A stretch of 62,677 nt of DNA, from the NCBI GenBank assembly GCA_009838845.1, contig VXRD01000089.1:1-62677 (forward strand), given 5' to 3'. Shown piece by piece: positions 11,354 through 62,677 of this stretch. A program made the translations under genes and the position numbers. The stretch's first letter is position 1; every line of letters begins with the position of its first letter. The stretch is from Gemmatimonadota bacterium (GTDB lineage: Bacteria > Latescibacterota > UBA2968). A model generated the notes under the pieces. The model was not told the origin of the DNA. It did not search any database and saw only the letters and a list, made by a program, of their open reading frames with translations.

Positions 11354-13957
11354 TTAACGGTTTATGATCTGTCCGAGTATTGACGAACTCGCGCAATTCG
11401 AGCCATTGGTTTCTGCAATGCTCTGAAGCCACGCCTGAAAGGCTGCATCAAGTGGCGCACAGAGTCCCGTATTTTCAAAGAAAAGTTGCTCTAATTTCGT
11501 CAGTCCTGTCAAGCTCTGAGGAAGCGCACCTGCCAAGAATGCGTTATTGTCGAGACGTAGTTTCGTAAGATTAGATAGGTCGCCCAATTCCTCTGGAATC
11601 TCACCACTTAATGCATTGCCTTCAAAACGCAGGATAGTGAGATTAATCAGGTTGCCCAATTCTACGGGAATCGCACCGCTCAGCTTATTGTCCTCAAAAC
11701 GCAGTTTCGTAAGATTAATCAGGTTGCCTAATGCCACAGGAATCGAACCACTCAACGTATTGTCCCCAAGATATAGGTACTCAAGATTGGAGAGATTACC
11801 CAATGCCACGGGAACCGAGCCGCTCAATTGATTGTCCTCAAGACGCAGATAAGTGAGATTGGAGGGGTTACCTAATGCCACGGGAATTGAACCACTCAAT
11901 GCATTGCCCCGAAAATCCAGATGGATGAGATTGGATAGGTTGCCTAATTCTTTTGGTATCTCACCACTCAATTCATTGTAGCGAAAATCCAGGTGCTCAA
12001 GATTAGACAGGTTGCCTAATTCCACGGGAATCGAACCACTCAATTCATTGGACGAAAGACGCAGGTACGTGAGGTTGGTCAGATTGGCCAATTCTTTTGG
12101 TATCTCACCACCCAACGGATTGGCCCCAAGTTCCAGATGCTCAAGATTTGTCAGGTTGCCTAATTCCACGGGAATCTCACCGCTCAATTCATTGTACCCA
12201 AGACTCAGGTACTCAAGATTAGACGAGTTGCCCAATTCCACAGGTATCTTCCCACTCAGTTTATTTTCCGAAAGACGTAGGTACTCAAGATTGGAGAGGT
12301 TACCTAATTCCACGGGAATCTCTCCACTCAATTCATTGCCCCAGAAATCCAGGCTTTTGAGCTTGGACAGGTTACCCAATTCCACAGGAATTTCACCACT
12401 CAACTGATTGGCGTAAAAATTTAGATACCTGAGGTTGGTCAAGTTGCCCAATTCTTTTGGAATCGTACCCATCAGATTATTATCCCTCAGGTCCAGGCTT
12501 GTTACCCAACCATTAGAGACGCTGACGCCATGCCAGGTGGAAAGGTCTCTATCACTTAGCCAATTGGTTTTGTTCGTCCAGTTATCTCCGTCCGTCGCAT
12601 TGTACAGAGCCACCAATAAGGATCTCTCATAAGTCCCCGGATTCCCGCAATTCGAGCCATTGGTTTCTGTAATGCCCTGAAGCCAAGTCTGAAAGACTGC
12701 ATTAAGCGGTGCGCATAGCTCCGTGTCTTGAAAGAGAAGTTTCTCTAACATTGTCAGTTCTGTCAAGTTTTGAGGAAGCGTACCTGTCAGGGATGCGTTA
12801 TCGTTGAGATATAGTTCCGCAAGATTGGTCAGGTTGCTCAATCCTTCTGGGATCTTACCACTCAATTCATTGTTTTCAAGATTCAGGTAAGTGAGATTGG
12901 AGAGGGTGAACAATTGGGGTGGGATTGTCGTGAAGTGGTTGTTACTCAGGTTGAGCCATGTCAGTGCGGGCAGGTCTTCAGAGATGCCATCTGGCAGGCT
13001 GGTTAGTTCGTTCTCTTGAAGGTTGAGCTTTGTCAGCGCGGTTAGTCCAGAAAAATCGTCGGCTTGCAGTTCTGAGAGGCTTGTCCCAACCACACCGAGA
13101 GAATCTATCGCAACGAGATGTGCATCCGTTACATTGCCACAGGTGCTTACAGGTGTGGCTGCCACAATCGCATCGCGCATTTGCGCGGTGCGGTCACAAA
13201 CTGGTAAGATTAATTGAGGAGGGGGTAACACTGCTTGTCCAAAATGGCTCGCAAATTCGAGAAAATCTGAAAACCCAATTGATCCGTCGCTGTCCAGATC
13301 GAGCCGGTTTTCGTACTTGTCTTCGTTTTGATTTGACCCAAACGCGCCTGCTAATAACACGAAGTCGCGAAAATCAACAACGCCACTTTCATCAAAGTCG
13401 GGAGAGGGCGGCATAAAGATCTGTAAAGCAACGCTGAGGGATAGGGTTACTGTCTCGAATTGTCCGCCCCGACTGAGTTCAGCGCGTACCAACCGAATCC
13501 GTGTGGACGAGAACATATCTGTGGTGCGAAAACGCATTGTGCCGATCAGACCGCTGTTACTCGTTGCAGTTCCGCCCAGAGACGCAATGTTGATTTCGAC
13601 AGAGCCAGATCCTTGTTGTATAAGAGCCTGAGCATTGGGCAATACATCGCCTGCATCAAATCCCTCGTAAATAATCTGGGTGGTGTTGTATTCAAAGCGC
13701 GCAAAAACCCCGATGGCATTCTGAATATCTGTGCCAAAAATCTGAATGAAGACGACTTGGTTGGATGGTACTGCGCGCGCGTGGATAGCTTGATTGCCTT
13801 CAGATTCATTCAGGTCCATGGAGAGGGAAAAGCTGCTCATCTGTGAGGAAAGAGGCTGCGGAAAAAGTAAGATCAGGAAGCTCAACAGACTGACGAGGCC
13901 AAGTGTGAGCAATGGAGGGGATGGTTCTTTATGTGGTTTCATACGCTTGTATATCAC
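11354..13957 (-). CDS. Secreted cohesin-dockerin-like protein with plant-type leucine-rich repeats
   Basis: An 867-residue modular protein. A signal peptide (about 1-38) precedes a cohesin-like beta-sandwich (about 42-180; motifs FIQIFGTDIQNA, VFARFEYNTTQIIYEGFDAG, SGLIGTMRFRT). Next is a dockerin-like pair of calcium loops (about 188-240; PDFDESGVVDFRDF and LDLDSDGSIGFSDF). Then come two LRR blocks, the second an array of about fourteen 24-residue repeats of the plant type (LSGEIPVELGNLSNLEYL). The array is nearly identical at DNA level with a 72-bp period. The start is GTG at 13957, overlapping the nucleotidyltransferase stop as GTGA; an ATG at 13942 is an alternative. The protein is probably a cell-surface binding protein. 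Confidence 0.88.
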   Translation of the reverse strand: MIYKRMKPHKEPSPPLLTLGLVSLLSFLILLFPQPLSSQMSSFSLSMDLNESEGNQAIHARAVPSNQVVFIQIFGTDIQNAIGVFARFEYNTTQIIYEGFDAGDVLPNAQALIQQGSGSVEINIASLGGTATSNSGLIGTMRFRTTDMFSSTRIRLVRAELSRGGQFETVTLSLSVALQIFMPPSPDFDESGVVDFRDFVLLAGAFGSNQNEDKYENRLDLDSDGSIGFSDFLEFASHFGQAVLPPPQLILPVCDRTAQMRDAIVAATPVSTCGNVTDAHLVAIDSLGVVGTSLSELQADDFSGLTALTKLNLQENELTSLPDGISEDLPALTWLNLSNNHFTTIPPQLFTLSNLTYLNLENNELSGKIPEGLSNLTNLAELYLNDNASLTGTLPQNLTELTMLEKLLFQDTELCAPLNAVFQTWLQGITETNGSNCGNPGTYERSLLVALYNATDGDNWTNKTNWLSDRDLSTWHGVSVSNGWVTSLDLRDNNLMGTIPKELGNLTNLRYLNFYANQLSGEIPVELGNLSKLKSLDFWGNELSGEIPVELGNLSNLEYLRLSENKLSGKIPVELGNSSNLEYLSLGYNELSGEIPVELGNLTNLEHLELGANPLGGEIPKELANLTNLTYLRLSSNELSGSIPVELGNLSNLEHLDFRYNELSGEIPKELGNLSNLIHLDFRGNALSGSIPVALGNPSNLTYLRLEDNQLSGSVPVALGNLSNLEYLYLGDNTLSGSIPVALGNLINLTKLRFEDNKLSGAIPVELGNLINLTILRFEGNALSGEIPEELGDLSNLTKLRLDNNAFLAGALPQSLTGLTKLEQLFFENTGLCAPLDAAFQAWLQSIAETNGSNCASSSILGQIINR

Positions 13958-14292
13958 CCGGCGGATTTGTAGAGGGTGCGTCCAAGTTTGAAAATTTCCT
14001 CGAGAAAGGGATCAAAGTTTTGCAGATGGGTTTGAATTTCTTCAGGTGTACGCACGACAATATCCATCGCAAAGTATTTTGGACGACAAATGCGAGCAAC
14101 GGCAGCACTTCGCGCTGTCGGACGCAAATCTGTATCCATGATGACGAGCAAATCTAAATCGCTATCGGTCTTTGGATCGCCATAAGCATGAGAGCCAAAG
14201 AGGATAATCTGATCTGGATGAAAGTGTTCGACAATTTTGTTTGCGATCTCATCCAAAAGCGATTCTGTTATTTTTTGTTCTTTCGCATTCAT
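13954..14292 (-). CDS. Minimal nucleotidyltransferase (MNT) domain protein
   Basis: A 112-residue member of the DNA polymerase beta-like nucleotidyltransferase superfamily. The signature G33-S34 ... D45-x-D47 (LFGSHAYGDPKTDSDLDLLV) is complete. Small MNT proteins often act as antitoxins with HEPN partners by AMP-modifying them, but no HEPN gene is adjacent. Instead the stop overlaps the start of the LRR protein gene (GTGA), suggesting translational coupling or chance. A second, larger nucleotidyltransferase starts divergently at 14685. Confidence 0.85.
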   Translation of the reverse strand: MNAKEQKITESLLDEIANKIVEHFHPDQIILFGSHAYGDPKTDSDLDLLVIMDTDLRPTARSAAVARICRPKYFAMDIVVRTPEEIQTHLQNFDPFLEEIFKLGRTLYKSAG

Positions 14293-32563: not shown

Positions 32564-33424
32564 ATGTTCTACCGGCATCTTTTGATCATTCTCAGTGTCT
32601 GCCTCGCCAGCTATGGCGAATGCGACTCAGGTGCTCATAAGAAGGGGGAGGGTATAACGATTCCGGATATCTACCTGCGTGCGGTGATTGAGGATTCTTT
32701 GAACAAGGCGAGAGGGGAAGCGATTACTGCGGCTGAGATGGCGACTTTGACGCGTCTTGAAGCACCGAATTCAAGGGTTCGCGATTTGACGGGGATTGAG
32801 TACGCGACCGAACTGACGGTGCTGAATCTCGGCGATGTATTTATAAATGGCAACCGGATCAATAGCAATGAGATTTCGGATATTTCGCCACTGTCGGGTT
32901 TGGTCAAGCTGACGGAGTTGTATATCCATCGCAATCAGATATGGGATATTTCGTCGCTGTCGAATTTAACGGAGTTGGAAAAACTGGATGTTAGTGCGAA
33001 TTTTCATATTTCCGATATTTCACCGCTGTCGGGTATGACTAAACTGAGGACGCTGTATCTCTATACCAATGAGATTTCGGATCTCTCGCCATTGTCGGAT
33101 TTGACCAATTTGAGGTGGCTGAGTTTGAGTAATAATCTGATCTGGGATATTTCTGACCTGGCGAGTTTGACAGAGTTGAGGGGGTTGGCTCTAAATATCA
33201 ATGCCGTGTCGGATATTTCTCATCTGTCGGGTATGATCTATATGGAGAGGCTGAATATTTGGGATTGCGATATTGTGGATTTATCGCCTCTGGTGGAGAA
33301 CGCGGGATTGCGTGGGGAAAAGGATTTTATCGATGTGAGGGATAATCCCCTGAGCGAGACATCACTGAACACGCATATTCCGACGCTTCGGGAGAGAGGG
33401 GTCAGGGTGAGGCTGGATAATTGA
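32564..33424 (+). CDS. Secreted leucine-rich-repeat protein, copy A
   Basis: A 286-residue protein with a signal peptide (MFYRHLLIILSVCLAS) and possibly a lipid-anchored Cys at about 20. After a conserved N-cap (ITIPDIYLRAVIEDSLNKARGE, then AEMATLTRLEAPNS) come about six 22-residue repeats of the SDS22/internalin type (ISDISPLSGLVKLTELYI). It ends RGVRVRLDN. The N-cap module recurs in the protein at 59738. Probably a surface ligand-binding protein. AGGACAATTCTT precedes the ATG. It is tandemly duplicated at 33440-34300. Confidence 0.88.
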   Translation: MFYRHLLIILSVCLASYGECDSGAHKKGEGITIPDIYLRAVIEDSLNKARGEAITAAEMATLTRLEAPNSRVRDLTGIEYATELTVLNLGDVFINGNRINSNEISDISPLSGLVKLTELYIHRNQIWDISSLSNLTELEKLDVSANFHISDISPLSGMTKLRTLYLYTNEISDLSPLSDLTNLRWLSLSNNLIWDISDLASLTELRGLALNINAVSDISHLSGMIYMERLNIWDCDIVDLSPLVENAGLRGEKDFIDVRDNPLSETSLNTHIPTLRERGVRVRLDN

Positions 33425-33439
33425 CGGAGGACAGTTCCC

Positions 33440-34300
33440 ATGATTTATCGATATCTTTTGATCATCCTCGGTGTCTGTCTCGCCATTTATGGCGCGTGCG
33501 ATGCAGGTGCTCATAAAAAGGGCGAGGGTATAACGATTCCGGATATCTACCTGCGTGCGGTGATTGAGGATTCTTTGAATAAGGCGAGGGGAGAGGTGAT
33601 TACTGCGGCTGAGATGGCGACGTTGACGCGTCTTGAAGCACCGAATTCAAGAATTCGCGATTTGACGGGGATTGAGTACGCGACCGAGCTGACGGTGCTG
33701 AATCTCGGCTATGTATTGACGAATGGCGGTCGCGTCAATAGCAATGGTATTTCGGATCTTTCTCCTTTGTCGGGTTTGGTCAAGCTGACGGAGTTGAACC
33801 TTTTTCGCAATACAATAGCTGATCTTTCGCCGCTGTCGAATTTGACAGAGTTGAGAGTTCTGGACCTCAGTGGGAATTCCTATATTTCGGATCTTTCGCC
33901 GCTGTCGGGTTTGACGGGGATGAGAACGCTGCATCTCTATACCAATGATGTTTCGGATCTCTCGCCGCTGTCGGGTTTGACCGAGTTGAGGTGGCTGGAT
34001 TTGAGTAGTAATCTGATCTGGGATCTTTCGCCGCTGTCGGGTTTGACCGAGTTGGGTGGATTGGCTGTGAATAACAATGCGGTCTCGGATCTTTCTCCTT
34101 TGTCGGGTTTACCCAGGCTGAAAAGGGTGCATGGTCGGGATTGCGATGTTTCGGATTTATCGCCTCTGGTGGAGAATGCGGGATTGCGTGGCGAGAACAG
34201 TTTGATCGATTTGAGGGATAATCCCCTGAGCGATGTTTCGATTAATAAGCATGTTCCGGTGCTTCAGGAGAGAGGGGTCAGGGTGAGACTCAGTAACTGA
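33440..34300 (+). CDS. Secreted leucine-rich-repeat protein, copy B
   Basis: A 286-residue tandem paralogue of the preceding gene, with the same length. The signal peptide and N-cap (residues 1-90) are nearly identical at DNA level, and the LRRs have diverged more (DLSPLSGL instead of DISPLSGL in most units). The ...GACDAG signal end resembles a lipobox. The gap between copies is 15 bases and includes the same GGAGGACA RBS, so duplication included the leader. It converges on the deacetylase gene, six bases away. Confidence 0.88.
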   Translation: MIYRYLLIILGVCLAIYGACDAGAHKKGEGITIPDIYLRAVIEDSLNKARGEVITAAEMATLTRLEAPNSRIRDLTGIEYATELTVLNLGYVLTNGGRVNSNGISDLSPLSGLVKLTELNLFRNTIADLSPLSNLTELRVLDLSGNSYISDLSPLSGLTGMRTLHLYTNDVSDLSPLSGLTELRWLDLSSNLIWDLSPLSGLTELGGLAVNNNAVSDLSPLSGLPRLKRVHGRDCDVSDLSPLVENAGLRGENSLIDLRDNPLSDVSINKHVPVLQERGVRVRLSN

Positions 34301-49037: not shown

Positions 49038-49145
49038 TTCATCCTCCCAGAATAAGTTGGTTGTGTTATGACGTAGCCGTAAAGGGCTACAAAGTGTACC
49101 ACGCTATCGCGAAGTTTCCAATCTCAGGTGAGCCACCAGTCATCT

Positions 49146-49472
49146 TTAACCCTTGAGGTGATTTATTATTGCTTTCACGAGTATGGTTATGACGCCGGCA
49201 TACAAAGCGGTACTGATTGGATCGACGATGGCGTCCAGGTGGGCACCAAGCTGCGGGATGCCGCTCAACGCATCCGCACCTGCAGCAGCGCCGACCGCAA
49301 GCGCAACGATCAAGTAGGTTGTTTCGTCATCAGCGCTGACCGCTACCACCGCGTAGGCCAGGCCCAGAATCACCAGCGCGAGGGACGCAAGTCCCGCAGG
49401 GATCGCGTCGGGCGTCAGGCCCTGAATAATCGCCAGAGCGGCGATCAGGCTAACAATAATCCTGCTTGCCAT
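49146..49472 (-). CDS. Small polytopic membrane protein, tandem paralogue 2
   Basis: A 108-residue paralogue. Core: AIPAGLASLALVILGLAYAVVAVSADDETTYLIVALAVGAAAGADALSGIPQLGAHLDAIVDPISTALYAGVITI. It has the same three or four helices, with no Gly-rich tail. GGGAGG lies eight bases before the ATG. It is intermediate in position between the other two copies. The family role is unknown; strict conservation of GAAAGAD and LDAIVDPI suggests those segments matter. Confidence 0.7.
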   Translation of the reverse strand: MASRIIVSLIAALAIIQGLTPDAIPAGLASLALVILGLAYAVVAVSADDETTYLIVALAVGAAAGADALSGIPQLGAHLDAIVDPISTALYAGVITILVKAIINHLKG

Positions 49473-49542
49473 ATTTCTTCCTCCCAGAATAGGTTAGTGT
49501 GTCACGACCTGTGGTTGCAGGTCGCTGGTCCGCCAGTCATCT

Positions 49543-49869
49543 TTAACTCTTGATGCGGTTTATTCCCCTCTCCACGAGTATGGCTATGACACCGGCATAC
49601 AAGGCGGTGGCGATCGGATCGACGATGGCGTCCAGTTGGGCACCTATCCCCGGGATGTTGCTCAATACGTCCGCACCTGCAGCAGCGCCGACTGCAATCG
49701 CAACGACCAGGAAGGCCGTCGCGTCCTCAGCGTCAACCGCCACTATCGCGTAGAGTAGTCCCAGTATCACCAGCGCGAGCGGCACAAGTCCCCCAGGGAT
49801 TGCGTCGGGCGCCAGGGCCTGCACAATCGCGAGGATGATGACCAGGACAATAATATTTCTGCTTGCCAT
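49543..49869 (-). CDS. Small polytopic membrane protein, tandem paralogue 3
   Basis: A 108-residue paralogue with AIPGGLVPLALVILGLLYAIVAVDAEDATAFLVVAIAVGAAAGADVLSNIPGIGAQLDAIVDPIATALYAGVIAI. The frame is open to 49923, but the ATG at 49869 with GGAGG is homologous to the other copies. It is the first of the three in the transcription direction. All three share an upstream motif around TTCTGGGAGG, so the duplication included the leader. Confidence 0.7.
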   Translation of the reverse strand: MASRNIIVLVIILAIVQALAPDAIPGGLVPLALVILGLLYAIVAVDAEDATAFLVVAIAVGAAAGADVLSNIPGIGAQLDAIVDPIATALYAGVIAILVERGINRIKS

Positions 49870-50116
49870 TTCTACCTCCCAGAATGTGGTTGTGTCACGG
49901 CTTGCGCTATCGCGCAGCCGCAACGGTTACCGACGGAATGCTACAAGATGCACCATCCCCGTCATGAAAAAGGTGAAAATATTTCCCTTTTTCTTATTGA
50001 TGAATGTAGTATTTCTTATGTTAAAAAATGTAAACAAAGTAGCAGTGTCAAGAGAATTCCCACTCGCTCAGTAAAAAAATTCGCTTATCTATCTATAAAA
50101 TTTCCCGTATAAATAC

Positions 50117-59737: not shown

Positions 59738-62677
59738 ATGCGTAACCAGATTCTGTTCGTGCTATCAACACTCGCGCTTTTGATGCACCCGCTGCCTCTT
59801 TCAGCACAGAATAACTTTTCCCTGTCGCTGGATGTGAATAGTGCCACAGGTGATCAGGCAGTCACGTTTTTAAATACTTCACCAGATCAAGTTATTGCCA
59901 TACAGATTTTCGGCAAAGATATTCAGAATGCGACAGGTGTTTCTGTGCGTTTTGAATACGATGCAGGTCAAGTTACCTATGAGGGTTTTGACACGGGTAC
60001 TGTGTTGCCCAATGCAAATGCGCTCACTGAACAGGGTACAAATCCGACTTTTGTGAAGATTGGTGTTGTGTCTTTTGGGGGGCAAGCCACGGTCAATAGC
60101 GGTCTGATTGGTACGATTCGTTTTCGCACGTCGGCTGCGTTTTCGGGCGGTGCAATTCGGCTGGTGCGTGCTGAGCTTGCCCGGAGTGAGCAAATTGAAA
60201 GCAGGACTATGGATTTACGCGTTGCGTTACAAAAATTACCAACGAGCTTTTCTCTGTCTCTGGATGCGAATCGTTCATCGGGTAATCAAGGCGTCACATC
60301 TGCTACTGTGTCCGCGGGTGAAGGTGTAGCTATTCAGGTATTTGGCGAAGATCTTCTGGGTGCAACTGATATTACTGTGCGTTTTGAATATGATGCAGGT
60401 CAGGTTGTCTATGAGAGGTTTGATGCAGGTGCTGTGTTGCCTAATGCTCAGGCAACTCGCCAGCAGGGATCAAACTTTGTAGAGATTACTCTTATGTCTT
60501 CTGGTCAGGCTACGGTCAATAGTGGTTTGGTGGGTACGATTCGTTTTCGCACGCTGAGTGCATTTTCGAGTAGTGCAATTCGGTTGGTGCGTGCCGACCT
60601 TGTCCGGGGTGGTCAAACTCAGCGCAGGACCTTGAATTTGAGAGTTGCGTTACAAAAATCGCTGCCAACGAGCTTTTCTCTATCTCTGGATGTGAACAGT
60701 GCATCGGGTAATCAAGGCGTCACGTCTGCTGTTGTGTCCACGGGTGAGGGTGTAGCCATTCAAGTATTTGGCGAAGATCTTCTGGGTGCAACTGATATTT
60801 CCCTGCGTTTTGAATACGATGCTACGCAGGTTGCTTATGATAGGTTTGACGCAGGCAGTGTGTTGCCCAATGCCCGGGCAACCCGCCAGCAGGGTTCGTC
60901 CTATGTGGAGCTTAGTCTTACCTCTTCTGGTCAGGCTACGGTCAATAGTGGGCTGGTGGGTACGATTCGTTTTCGCACGTCGGCTGCGTTTTCGGGCAGT
61001 GCAATTCGGCTGGTGCGTGCAGATCTTGTCAGAGGTGGTCAAACTCAGCGCAGGACCTTGAATTTGAGAGTTGCATTACAAAGAGCGTTGCCAACGAGCT
61101 TTTCCCTTTCTCTGGATGTGAATGGTTCATCGGGCGATCAAGCCGTCACATCTGCCACAGTGTCCGCGGGTGAAGGTGTAGCCATTCAGGTATTTGGCGA
61201 AGATCTTCTGGGTGCAACTGATATTTCCCTGCGTTTTGAATACGATGCTGCACAGGTTGCTTATGAGCGCTTTGACGCGGGCGGTGTGTTGCCCAATGCT
61301 CAGGCAACTCGCCAGCAGGGTTCGTCCTATGTAGAGATTAGCCTTACCTCTTCTGGTCAAGCAACATTCAACAGTGGTCTGATTGGTACAATTCGCTTTC
61401 GTACATTGGTTGCGTTTTCTGGTAGTGCGATTCGGCTGGTGCGTGCAGATCTTACTCGGGGCAGTCAAACTCAGCGCAGGACCCTGAACTTGCGAGTTGC
61501 ATTACAAAGAGCGTTGCCAACGAGCTTTTCCCTTTCTCTGGATGTGAATGGTTCAGCGGGTGATCAGTCGGTTACATCTGTCACTGTGTCCGCAGGTGAA
61601 GGTATAGCCGTTCAGGTATTTGGCACAGATATTCAGAATGCGACAGGTGTTTCTATACGTTTTGAATACGATGGGGGTCAAGTTGTCCATGAAGGGTTTG
61701 ACGCAGGCAGTGTGTTACCCAATGTACAGGTACTCACGGAACAAGGTACAAGTCCGACCTTTGTAGAGATTGGTCTTGTGTCTTTGAGCGGTCAATCTAC
61801 GGTCAACAGTGGTCTGATCGGCACGATTCGTTTTCGCACACTATCTACGTTTTCGGGCAGTGCAGTTCGATTGGTACGTGGTGATCTTGTTCGAGGTAGG
61901 CAAATTCAAAGCGTGCCCCTGAATTTGCGCGTTGAGTTACAGCTTTCTGTTTCTACTGCGCCTTCCCCGGACTTTAATGGCAATGGTCGGGTTGATATTC
62001 CCGACTTTTTGCTTTTTGTGGATGCGTTCGGAACTCAGGCGGGTCAAGCAGGGTATGAGTCAAAATACGATCTGGATGGTAATGGCGTGATAGGGGTTCC
62101 CGATTTTCTGATCTTTATCGATAATTTTAGCAAAGAGGTATCTACGTCCAATGGTGGTGATAGTGGCGGTAGCGGTGGCGATGGTGGTAGTGGTGGTGAT
62201 AATGGCGGTAGCGGTGGTGATAGTGGTAGTGGTGGCGGGACGATGCAGGTTGCCATTCCGGATGCGAATTTACGTGCAGCCATCGCGGCTGAGCTTGGCA
62301 AAGCGAGCGGTGCGCCGATCACCAGGGATGAGATGGCAACCCTGACTCGTCTTTCTGCATGGCAGACTAACACAAGGAACTTGGCTGGGCTTGAGTTCGC
62401 GACCAGTTTGACATGGCTAAATCTTGGTGACAACAACATCACGGATCTATCTGCGTTATCTGGCTTGACCAATCTGACATTTCTGGATCTTCACTTCAAC
62501 AGTATCTCGGATGTGTCTGCATTATCTGGCTTGACGAATCTGAAAGATCTGTCTCTTCGCAACAACAACAGTATCTCGGATGTGTCTGCATTATCTGGCT
62601 TGATCAATCTGACAAGGCTGGCTCTTAGTGCCAACAGCATCACGGATGTGTCTGGACTGTCCAGTTTGACGAATCTG
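59738..62677 (+). CDS. Modular surface protein: five cohesin-like domains, dockerin-like pair and LRRs (3' end outside window)
   Basis: The frame is open for 980 codons from the ATG at 59738 (AAAGGAG nine bases upstream) to the window edge. A signal peptide (1-24) is followed by five tandem cohesin-like domains of ~142-144 residues (25-168, 169-310, 311-452, 453-594, 595-737). Copies 2-4 are nearly identical at DNA level with an exact 426-bp period; copies 1 and 5 share a different version (IQNATGVS). A dockerin-like pair of calcium loops (about 740-800; DFNGNGRVDIPDF, DLDGNGVIGVPDF), a Gly/Ser/Asp linker (about 803-832), and an LRR block with an N-cap like the proteins at 32564 and 33440 follow. 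Confidence 0.88.
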   Translation, partial: MRNQILFVLSTLALLMHPLPLSAQNNFSLSLDVNSATGDQAVTFLNTSPDQVIAIQIFGKDIQNATGVSVRFEYDAGQVTYEGFDTGTVLPNANALTEQGTNPTFVKIGVVSFGGQATVNSGLIGTIRFRTSAAFSGGAIRLVRAELARSEQIESRTMDLRVALQKLPTSFSLSLDANRSSGNQGVTSATVSAGEGVAIQVFGEDLLGATDITVRFEYDAGQVVYERFDAGAVLPNAQATRQQGSNFVEITLMSSGQATVNSGLVGTIRFRTLSAFSSSAIRLVRADLVRGGQTQRRTLNLRVALQKSLPTSFSLSLDVNSASGNQGVTSAVVSTGEGVAIQVFGEDLLGATDISLRFEYDATQVAYDRFDAGSVLPNARATRQQGSSYVELSLTSSGQATVNSGLVGTIRFRTSAAFSGSAIRLVRADLVRGGQTQRRTLNLRVALQRALPTSFSLSLDVNGSSGDQAVTSATVSAGEGVAIQVFGEDLLGATDISLRFEYDAAQVAYERFDAGGVLPNAQATRQQGSSYVEISLTSSGQATFNSGLIGTIRFRTLVAFSGSAIRLVRADLTRGSQTQRRTLNLRVALQRALPTSFSLSLDVNGSAGDQSVTSVTVSAGEGIAVQVFGTDIQNATGVSIRFEYDGGQVVHEGFDAGSVLPNVQVLTEQGTSPTFVEIGLVSLSGQSTVNSGLIGTIRFRTLSTFSGSAVRLVRGDLVRGRQIQSVPLNLRVELQLSVSTAPSPDFNGNGRVDIPDFLLFVDAFGTQAGQAGYESKYDLDGNGVIGVPDFLIFIDNFSKEVSTSNGGDSGGSGGDGGSGGDNGGSGGDSGSGGGTMQVAIPDANLRAAIAAELGKASGAPITRDEMATLTRLSAWQTNTRNLAGLEFATSLTWLNLGDNNITDLSALSGLTNLTFLDLHFNSISDVSALSGLTNLKDLSLRNNNSISDVSALSGLINLTRLALSANSITDVSGLSSLTNL

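Follow-up and report, generated by a model that had tools for sequence, protein, structure and literature searches.

Among described systems, the closest to the one reported here are the scaffoldin-like proteins of anaerobic methanotrophic (ANME) archaea, which carry a dockerin together with up to five cohesins, as set out in the section of PMC9012536 on these proteins, and the tandem-cohesin scaffold of Candidatus Stygibacter (Cloacimonadota; PMC8542988). Here we describe a gene that starts at position 59738, forward strand, of contig VXRD01000089.1 (GenBank assembly GCA_009838845.1), from a Gemmatimonadota bacterium that GTDB places in the Latescibacterota (UBA2968). The whole stretch analyzed, positions 1 to 62,677 of this contig, is called the window below. 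The gene encodes five tandem cohesins, one dockerin and a leucine-rich repeat (LRR) region on a single chain, and we favor, at a probability of roughly 60%, the reading that its product is secreted and works as an LRR-bearing scaffoldin, collecting proteins that carry dockerins while its own dockerin tethers it.

The ANME proteins resemble this one in combining a dockerin with several cohesins per chain, in the many dockerin proteins encoded by the genome, and in that no role in cellulose use is assumed. They differ in being archaeal, in that the dockerin carriers named are ABC-transporter binding proteins and S-layer proteins, and in that the section of PMC9012536 on these proteins names no LRR tail and describes no copy-number change at one locus between species. 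The account of Stygibacter in PMC8542988, in the part concerned with its scaffold, likewise gives a non-catalytic tandem-cohesin scaffold, hydrolases with C-terminal dockerins and surface attachment through a conserved C-terminal domain, again in a candidate phylum; there, however, the 3,755-residue scaffold itself carries the carbohydrate-binding modules (CBMs) CBM2/CBM3 and the attachment domain, whereas the five-cohesin chain has an LRR region and a dockerin, and type IX tails are found on other cohesin proteins. Clostridium thermocellum CipA shares the order of cohesin and then dockerin at the end of the cohesin array, and its Coh9-X-Doc segment is the top Foldseek match to our model, but in the window part of our protein neither a CBM nor an X-module was found, the dockerin sequence is not set apart from those of candidate clients, and an LRR region is present instead. 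In Ruminococcus flavefaciens FD-1, LRRs occur on dockerin proteins, and the LRR-dockerin chains in that part of the account (PMC2930009) are without cohesins. The non-cellulosomal cohesin 2xdh of Archaeoglobus fulgidus has a comparable cohesin fold (Z 12.6, root-mean-square deviation (rmsd) 3.2 over 126 residues). It is archaeal, and we know of no LRR in the protein that carries it. Our protein is thus set apart from known scaffolds by its LRR head, by a client-like dockerin on the scaffold itself, and by a cohesin number of five in one species and nine in another.

Architecture of the five-cohesin gene

The open reading frame (ORF) that begins with the ATG at 59738 on the forward strand stays open to the end of the window, where it has reached 980 residues. 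Its translation gives, in order, a leader, five tandem cohesins, one dockerin with two F-hands, a Gly/Ser/Asp linker and LRRs. Together with profile scans, this bears out the claim of an earlier note on this DNA that five such domains and a dockerin pair lie in a single ORF. The features are as follows.

59738–59806, forward strand: probable Sec signal peptide (residues 1–23, MRNQILFVLSTLALLMHPLPLSA), read by eye from the translation; paralogues start with a similar leader.
59816–60247, forward strand: cohesin domain 1, 144 residues, with the same central version as domain 5; best stretch for Pfam Cohesin, 49–134.
60248–60673, forward strand: cohesin domain 2, 142 residues, internal version.
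60674–61099, forward strand: cohesin domain 3, 142 residues, internal version.
61100–61525, forward strand: cohesin domain 4, 142 residues, internal version.
61526–61951, forward strand: cohesin domain 5, 142 residues; its predicted model is a cohesin fold.
61964–62140, forward strand: dockerin with two F-hand repeats; calcium loops at about 61970–62005 (DFNGNGRVDIPD) and about 62069–62104 (DLDGNGVIGVPD).
62141–62239, forward strand: Gly/Ser/Asp-rich linker, from the translation; tandem repeats within 62152–62237.
62240–62677, forward strand: SDS22/internalin-like LRR region (LRR_4, 6.9e-17), running into a 100-N scaffold gap.

Five cohesins on one chain with a leader (by eye), and dockerin-bearing enzymes in the same genome, are what a scaffoldin calls for, and Pfam and NCBIfam-type profile scans of the window part of the protein found no catalytic domain above its own cut-off. 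The CBM of a cellulosome is absent from the Pfam matches of the 980 residues at E values up to 1.

On the scaffold (C89), a run of 100 N at C89:62678–62777 begins directly at the window end, inside the LRR array. Beyond this gap LRR sequence picks up again and ends, judged by eye, in an LRR cap terminating in SKPAVEQE, with a stop codon at C89:63557. Because the 100-N gap is probably a placeholder, the length of the protein is not fixed by the assembly. Runs of N also interrupt LRR arrays on several contigs (L021, 7679–7778; L022; L024), which makes LRR lengths in this assembly unreliable. The repeats are similar to those of internalins in type only: the class 1 internalin models NF033188 and NF033189 were not passed (73.9 bits against 1050 and 63.9 against 1600), and a match of 1e-20 to the internalin_H model on the LRR region is far under that model's cut-off.

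Predicted folds of the cohesins and the dockerin

An AlphaFold2 model of domain 5 together with the dockerin, built from 51 aligned sequences, provides the fold evidence (predicted local distance difference test (pLDDT) 91.0, predicted template modeling score (pTM) 0.68). A Foldseek search with this two-domain model places Coh9-X-Doc segments from the scaffoldin of C. thermocellum (3kcp/4fl4) at the top of the PDB chains, followed by cohesins. When the domain 5 model is compared using VIA-align, ranks 1–42 are all cohesin-bearing chains and surface proteins of other kinds come in only at Z 11.9 and lower; the match to the C. perfringens cohesin 2vo8 has a Z of 14.9 and an rmsd of 2.5 over 128 residues. 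Domains 1–4 are 63–69% identical to the modeled domain, and the whole chain scores 46.1 bits with Pfam Cohesin (PF00963), over the cut-off of 24.1. The ratio of nonsynonymous to synonymous divergence (dN/dS), 0.16–0.41 in 13 pairs of repeats, points to purifying selection on the cohesins.

The two 12-residue loops of the dockerin, DFNGNGRVDIPD and DLDGNGVIGVPD, both have D or N at ligand positions 1, 3, 5 and 12. A model of the dockerin alone (pLDDT 97.8) superimposes on 2y3n_B with a Z of 9.2 and an rmsd of 1.0 over 53 residues, and on the dockerins of type II X-dockerin complexes at 1.1–1.5 Å over 57–59 residues (3kcp_A, 1.1 over 59), while the remaining dockerins listed fit less closely, at 2.4–3.0. 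By profile, the domain falls on both sides of the Dockerin_1 (PF00404) cut-off of 22.9 bits, with 25.0 in the genome search and 20.8 when the protein was scanned, and it reaches 25.1 with NCBIfam dockerin_GC, whose cut-off is 29. A calmodulin-type EF-hand was considered and rejected: calmodulins do turn up in the sequence search, but a Foldseek search with the dockerin model places dockerin-containing chains at ranks 1–16. The earlier note had left room for repeats that are not cohesin folds and for a dockerin pair lacking calcium ligands; instead, the predicted model of domain 5 is a cohesin fold, and the dockerin has its ligand positions intact within a fold like that of solved dockerins.

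Expansion of the cohesin array

The motif ACGAGCTTTTC is found on the forward strand of the window only at 60242, 60668, 61094 and 61520. The 426-bp period described before is exact, and Tandem Repeats Finder agrees with it (60089–61889, period 426, 4.2 copies, score 2171). Measured from their FSLSLD starts at 59816, 60248, 60674, 61100 and 61526, the five domains are spaced by 432, 426, 426 and 426. The description of domains 2–4 as near-identical in DNA, on the other hand, was overstated, as their identity is 83.8–86.9% in DNA and 84.5–88.0% in protein; with a synonymous divergence of 0.34–0.54 among them, any homogenization is therefore old or partial. Domains 1 and 5 do differ centrally from the rest, as had been proposed: in a central block of 60 nt (from alignment position 200) they are 82% identical to each other, and either is 48–58% identical to domains 2–4. 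Within the window part of the gene the longest exact repeat is only 62 bp, so the five copies are probably no product of assembly collapse. A chance repeat or assembly artifact was rejected on this ground, together with a homologous array in a single-contig genome of the same genus and the signs of selection on the repeats.

A search of named genomes using a cohesin-dockerin alignment gave 75 loci, mostly from Latescibacteria/Latescibacterota, with some from Gemmatimonadota and one from a plain bacterium. Across 60 genomes, our own included, 54 have a match to this alignment, 58 to Dockerin_1 and 47 to PF00963. The same architecture with nine cohesins of 139–144 residues is present in OX638329.1, a one-contig genome of the same genus (locus L062; genome G007 by matching coordinates), and the nine-cohesin gene, like the one in the window, has a single-cohesin paralogue behind it. 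The array therefore expands and contracts, with five cohesins in one species and nine in another of the same genus. Between the two genes, domain 1 shares 91% of its DNA positions; the internal domains are 84–87% alike within the window, and window domains 2–4 are 77–84% alike to domains 2–9 of the nine-cohesin gene. In a DNA tree of the domains, which is a sketch because the sequences are some 426 nt long and may have undergone gene conversion, the internal type forms one clade (support 100); within it, window domains 2–4 group together (91), with domains 8–9 of the nine-cohesin gene as their sister (98). This topology fits a separate expansion in each lineage and supports amplification of an internal type, where the earlier note had proposed that of an internal pair. 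Unequal recombination in the 426-bp array may be what alters the number of domains.

The 76 loci of relatives (75 named and one unnamed) contain 62 cohesin ORFs when cohesin matches of 20 bits or less are left out; of these, 56 are single-cohesin ORFs, five carry two cohesins and a single one carries nine. In 60 of the 62 the dockerin begins at most 10 residues after the last cohesin, the other two having a gap of 125 and no dockerin, respectively. In the single-contig relative, cohesin-dockerin matches at G007:C1 6318169, 5079193, 1075427 and 6290717 lie in open frames of 8739, 6395, 5846 and 4913 residues.

Dockerins and cohesins elsewhere in the genome

We fetched the loci of this genome where cohesin or dockerin searches had matched, which is not a full census. 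They hold 77 dockerin ORFs, the remainder of 144 once contained or repeated ORFs are removed, several of which end at contig ends or N runs. The dockerin lies at the C-terminal end in 37, just behind the N-terminus in 30 and in between in 10, and the family cohesin profile has no match on 67 of them. Cohesins are carried by seven ORFs with full family cohesins (11 modules), by one ORF with a distant cohesin on C84, and by two chains with PF00963 cohesins on C91, for a total of about 14 modules, below which further cohesin-like domains may exist under the profile thresholds. As candidate clients, the dockerin ORFs are varied: Pfam finds LRR_4 in 14 of the 77 and WD40 in 6, and the 18 chosen for scanning include a GH10 enzyme (1.4e-94), a GH113 enzyme, two sulfatases, a pectate-lyase-like protein, a PHB-type esterase, a subtilase, an M10 protease and an FGE-sulfatase-domain protein. 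The two C91 chains combine a dockerin and a cohesin with a type IX sorting tail (TIGR04183, 39.9 and 38.7 bits, cut-off 23), and the same genome encodes the SprA translocon (618.5 bits with in-frame neighbors, cut-off 200); surface-held cohesins are therefore plausible.

All 68 two-half dockerins scored have D at loop positions 1 and 12 (the nine of the 77 without two motif halves are excluded), although the search motif itself accepted nothing but D at the first of these positions and D, N or E at the second. Positions 10, 11, 17 and 18, which we take to be the recognition positions, vary across the genome. Among the 24 dockerins of this set shown as nearest to that of the five-cohesin protein, 22 belong to ORFs that have no cohesin match. 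In a weakly supported tree that left out pieces shorter than 50 residues, the scaffold's dockerin nests with dockerins of cohesin-less proteins and of a single-cohesin protein on C41 (clade supports 59–77).

Paralogues of the scaffold with one cohesin, one dockerin and LRRs include a gene that starts at C89:63675, just behind it, and a second family member within the window.

11357–14011, reverse strand: second family member, an open frame with a leader, one cohesin and one dockerin (13229–13831), then LRRs; distinct LRR array at 11565–12410.

Other paralogues in the genome lack a full cohesin (on C24 and C95, with shorter ones on C21 and C172); in these, the leader is followed by a dockerin and LRRs, with no more than a stub between leader and dockerin. 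The cohesin-loss paralogues at L025 3295–6993, L027 2–721, L022 3075–5873 and L024 30–1580 form a natural deletion series, in which L025 and L027 carry only 24-residue cohesin remnants (labeled coh1 by the script). On three contigs (L022 1–720, L023 1507–2229 and L024 4026–4757), a cohesin-dockerin-LRR gene has as its neighbor a small protein that looks thioredoxin-like by eye and bears a dockerin at its N-terminus; L138 has it as well. Elsewhere in the window, two LRR ORFs on the forward strand at 32624–34168 (frames of 323 and 291 residues) match the LRR part of the scaffold, in a region that contains none of the 77 dockerin ORFs; a 397-bp near-tandem duplication with 79% matches is located at 49136–49885.

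Possible modes of assembly

We hypothesize that the five cohesins, after export, would act as sockets for the calcium-dependent dockerins of hydrolases, sulfatases, WD40 proteins and LRR proteins secreted by the same cell. The scaffold's own dockerin would plug the assembly into a cohesin elsewhere, which could belong to a type IX-tailed cohesin protein, to a single-cohesin paralogue or to another copy of the scaffold, and the distal LRR region may be a binding head for matrix or for the surface of another cell. Changes in the length of the array, from five here to nine in the related species, would change the number of sockets. Three observations weigh against this proposal. Profile scans of the window part of the scaffold found no CBM, no surface anchor and no type IX sorting domain (TIGR04183); the best single domain of the gene reaches only 22.0 bits with PF00963 in the genome search, under the 24.1 cut-off; and a genome of the same genus (G010) has 21 Dockerin_1 matches with no PF00963 match and a weak family match (best 2.9e-24), so that dockerins persist there without this scaffold.

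A clearly less probable arrangement, though the one that fares best among the alternatives, is that the scaffold's dockerin binds the cohesins of further copies, so that chains would grow head to tail, branch at the five sockets and form an LRR-decorated surface mesh. Self-assembly into surface polymers, which the earlier note had suggested, is possible judging from the domain content. The short cohesin-dockerin spacing in relatives agrees with it, as does the grouping of the scaffold's dockerin with those of cohesin-less proteins, in which no separate anchoring class is evident; the client-like dockerin and the short spacing allow head-to-tail assembly, and neither demonstrates it. The dockerin of CipA, however, is discrete from enzyme dockerins. 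The same holds for the primary scaffoldin of R. flavefaciens in the part of PMC5934362 that deals with it, a precedent that speaks against a scaffold whose dockerin binds its own cohesins. Moreover, clients would compete for the sockets: with 77 dockerin ORFs to about 14 cohesin modules in the fetched loci, most docking would involve other proteins, which argues against self-assembly as the sole reading, and the variable recognition positions leave specificity unreadable. A more far-reaching version, which we consider improbable, makes the cohesin-dockerin unit a self-compatible connector: chains would polymerize by head-to-tail docking, with branches at the tandem cohesins, the mesh would show LRR, WD40 and cadherin-like heads to a eukaryotic host, and branching would be tuned by cohesin number, from five to nine.

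It is also unlikely that the last cohesin and the dockerin pack together into a closed unit, in which the cohesin would take the part that the X-module has next to type II dockerins and the repeats would be mainly spacers holding the LRR head at a distance from the cell. In favor of such packing, the short linker is conserved in relatives, and the dockerin model fits the dockerins of X-dockerin complexes at 1.1–1.5 Å. But the two-domain pTM is only 0.68 despite confident domains, so no fixed packing is predicted, and the dockerin appears independent of the cohesin, as five of the genome's own paralogues have a leader, dockerin and LRRs without a full cohesin and most dockerin ORFs (67 of the 77) lack a family cohesin match. 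Least probable of all is that the phylum has turned the cohesin and dockerin folds into general-purpose secreted domains that do not bind each other, for although several genomes have Dockerin_1 matches and no PF00963 match (2 dockerin matches in G028, 3 in G034, 11 in G037, 8 in G040, 6 in G044 and 4 in G046), the PF00963 model largely misses this cohesin family and its zero counts are weak, D is kept at loop positions 1 and 12 within the limits of the search motif, and the cohesin repeats appear to be held by purifying selection.

Taking the tethered, client-gathering scaffoldin as our preferred reading, we can place it in what is known of the phylum. A literature search combining cohesin, dockerin and Latescibacteria found no paper, and the words cohesin, cellulosome and scaffold are absent from the 2015 genome analysis of Latescibacteria (PMC4454575). 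Metagenome-assembled genomes of sponge-associated Latescibacterota carry LRR and WD40 proteins, according to the passages of PMC12993501 on them, and the word cohesin is absent from that paper. Our results point to a cohesin-dockerin network on the scale of the genome, and the literature searched has no report of one for this phylum. This network would be coupled to the kinds of LRR and WD40 proteins that those passages of PMC12993501 discuss as symbiosis factors in sponge bacteria, a sponge association described for relatives in the phylum. The arrays of five and nine cohesins offer a natural series for the evolution of socket number and dockerin specificity.

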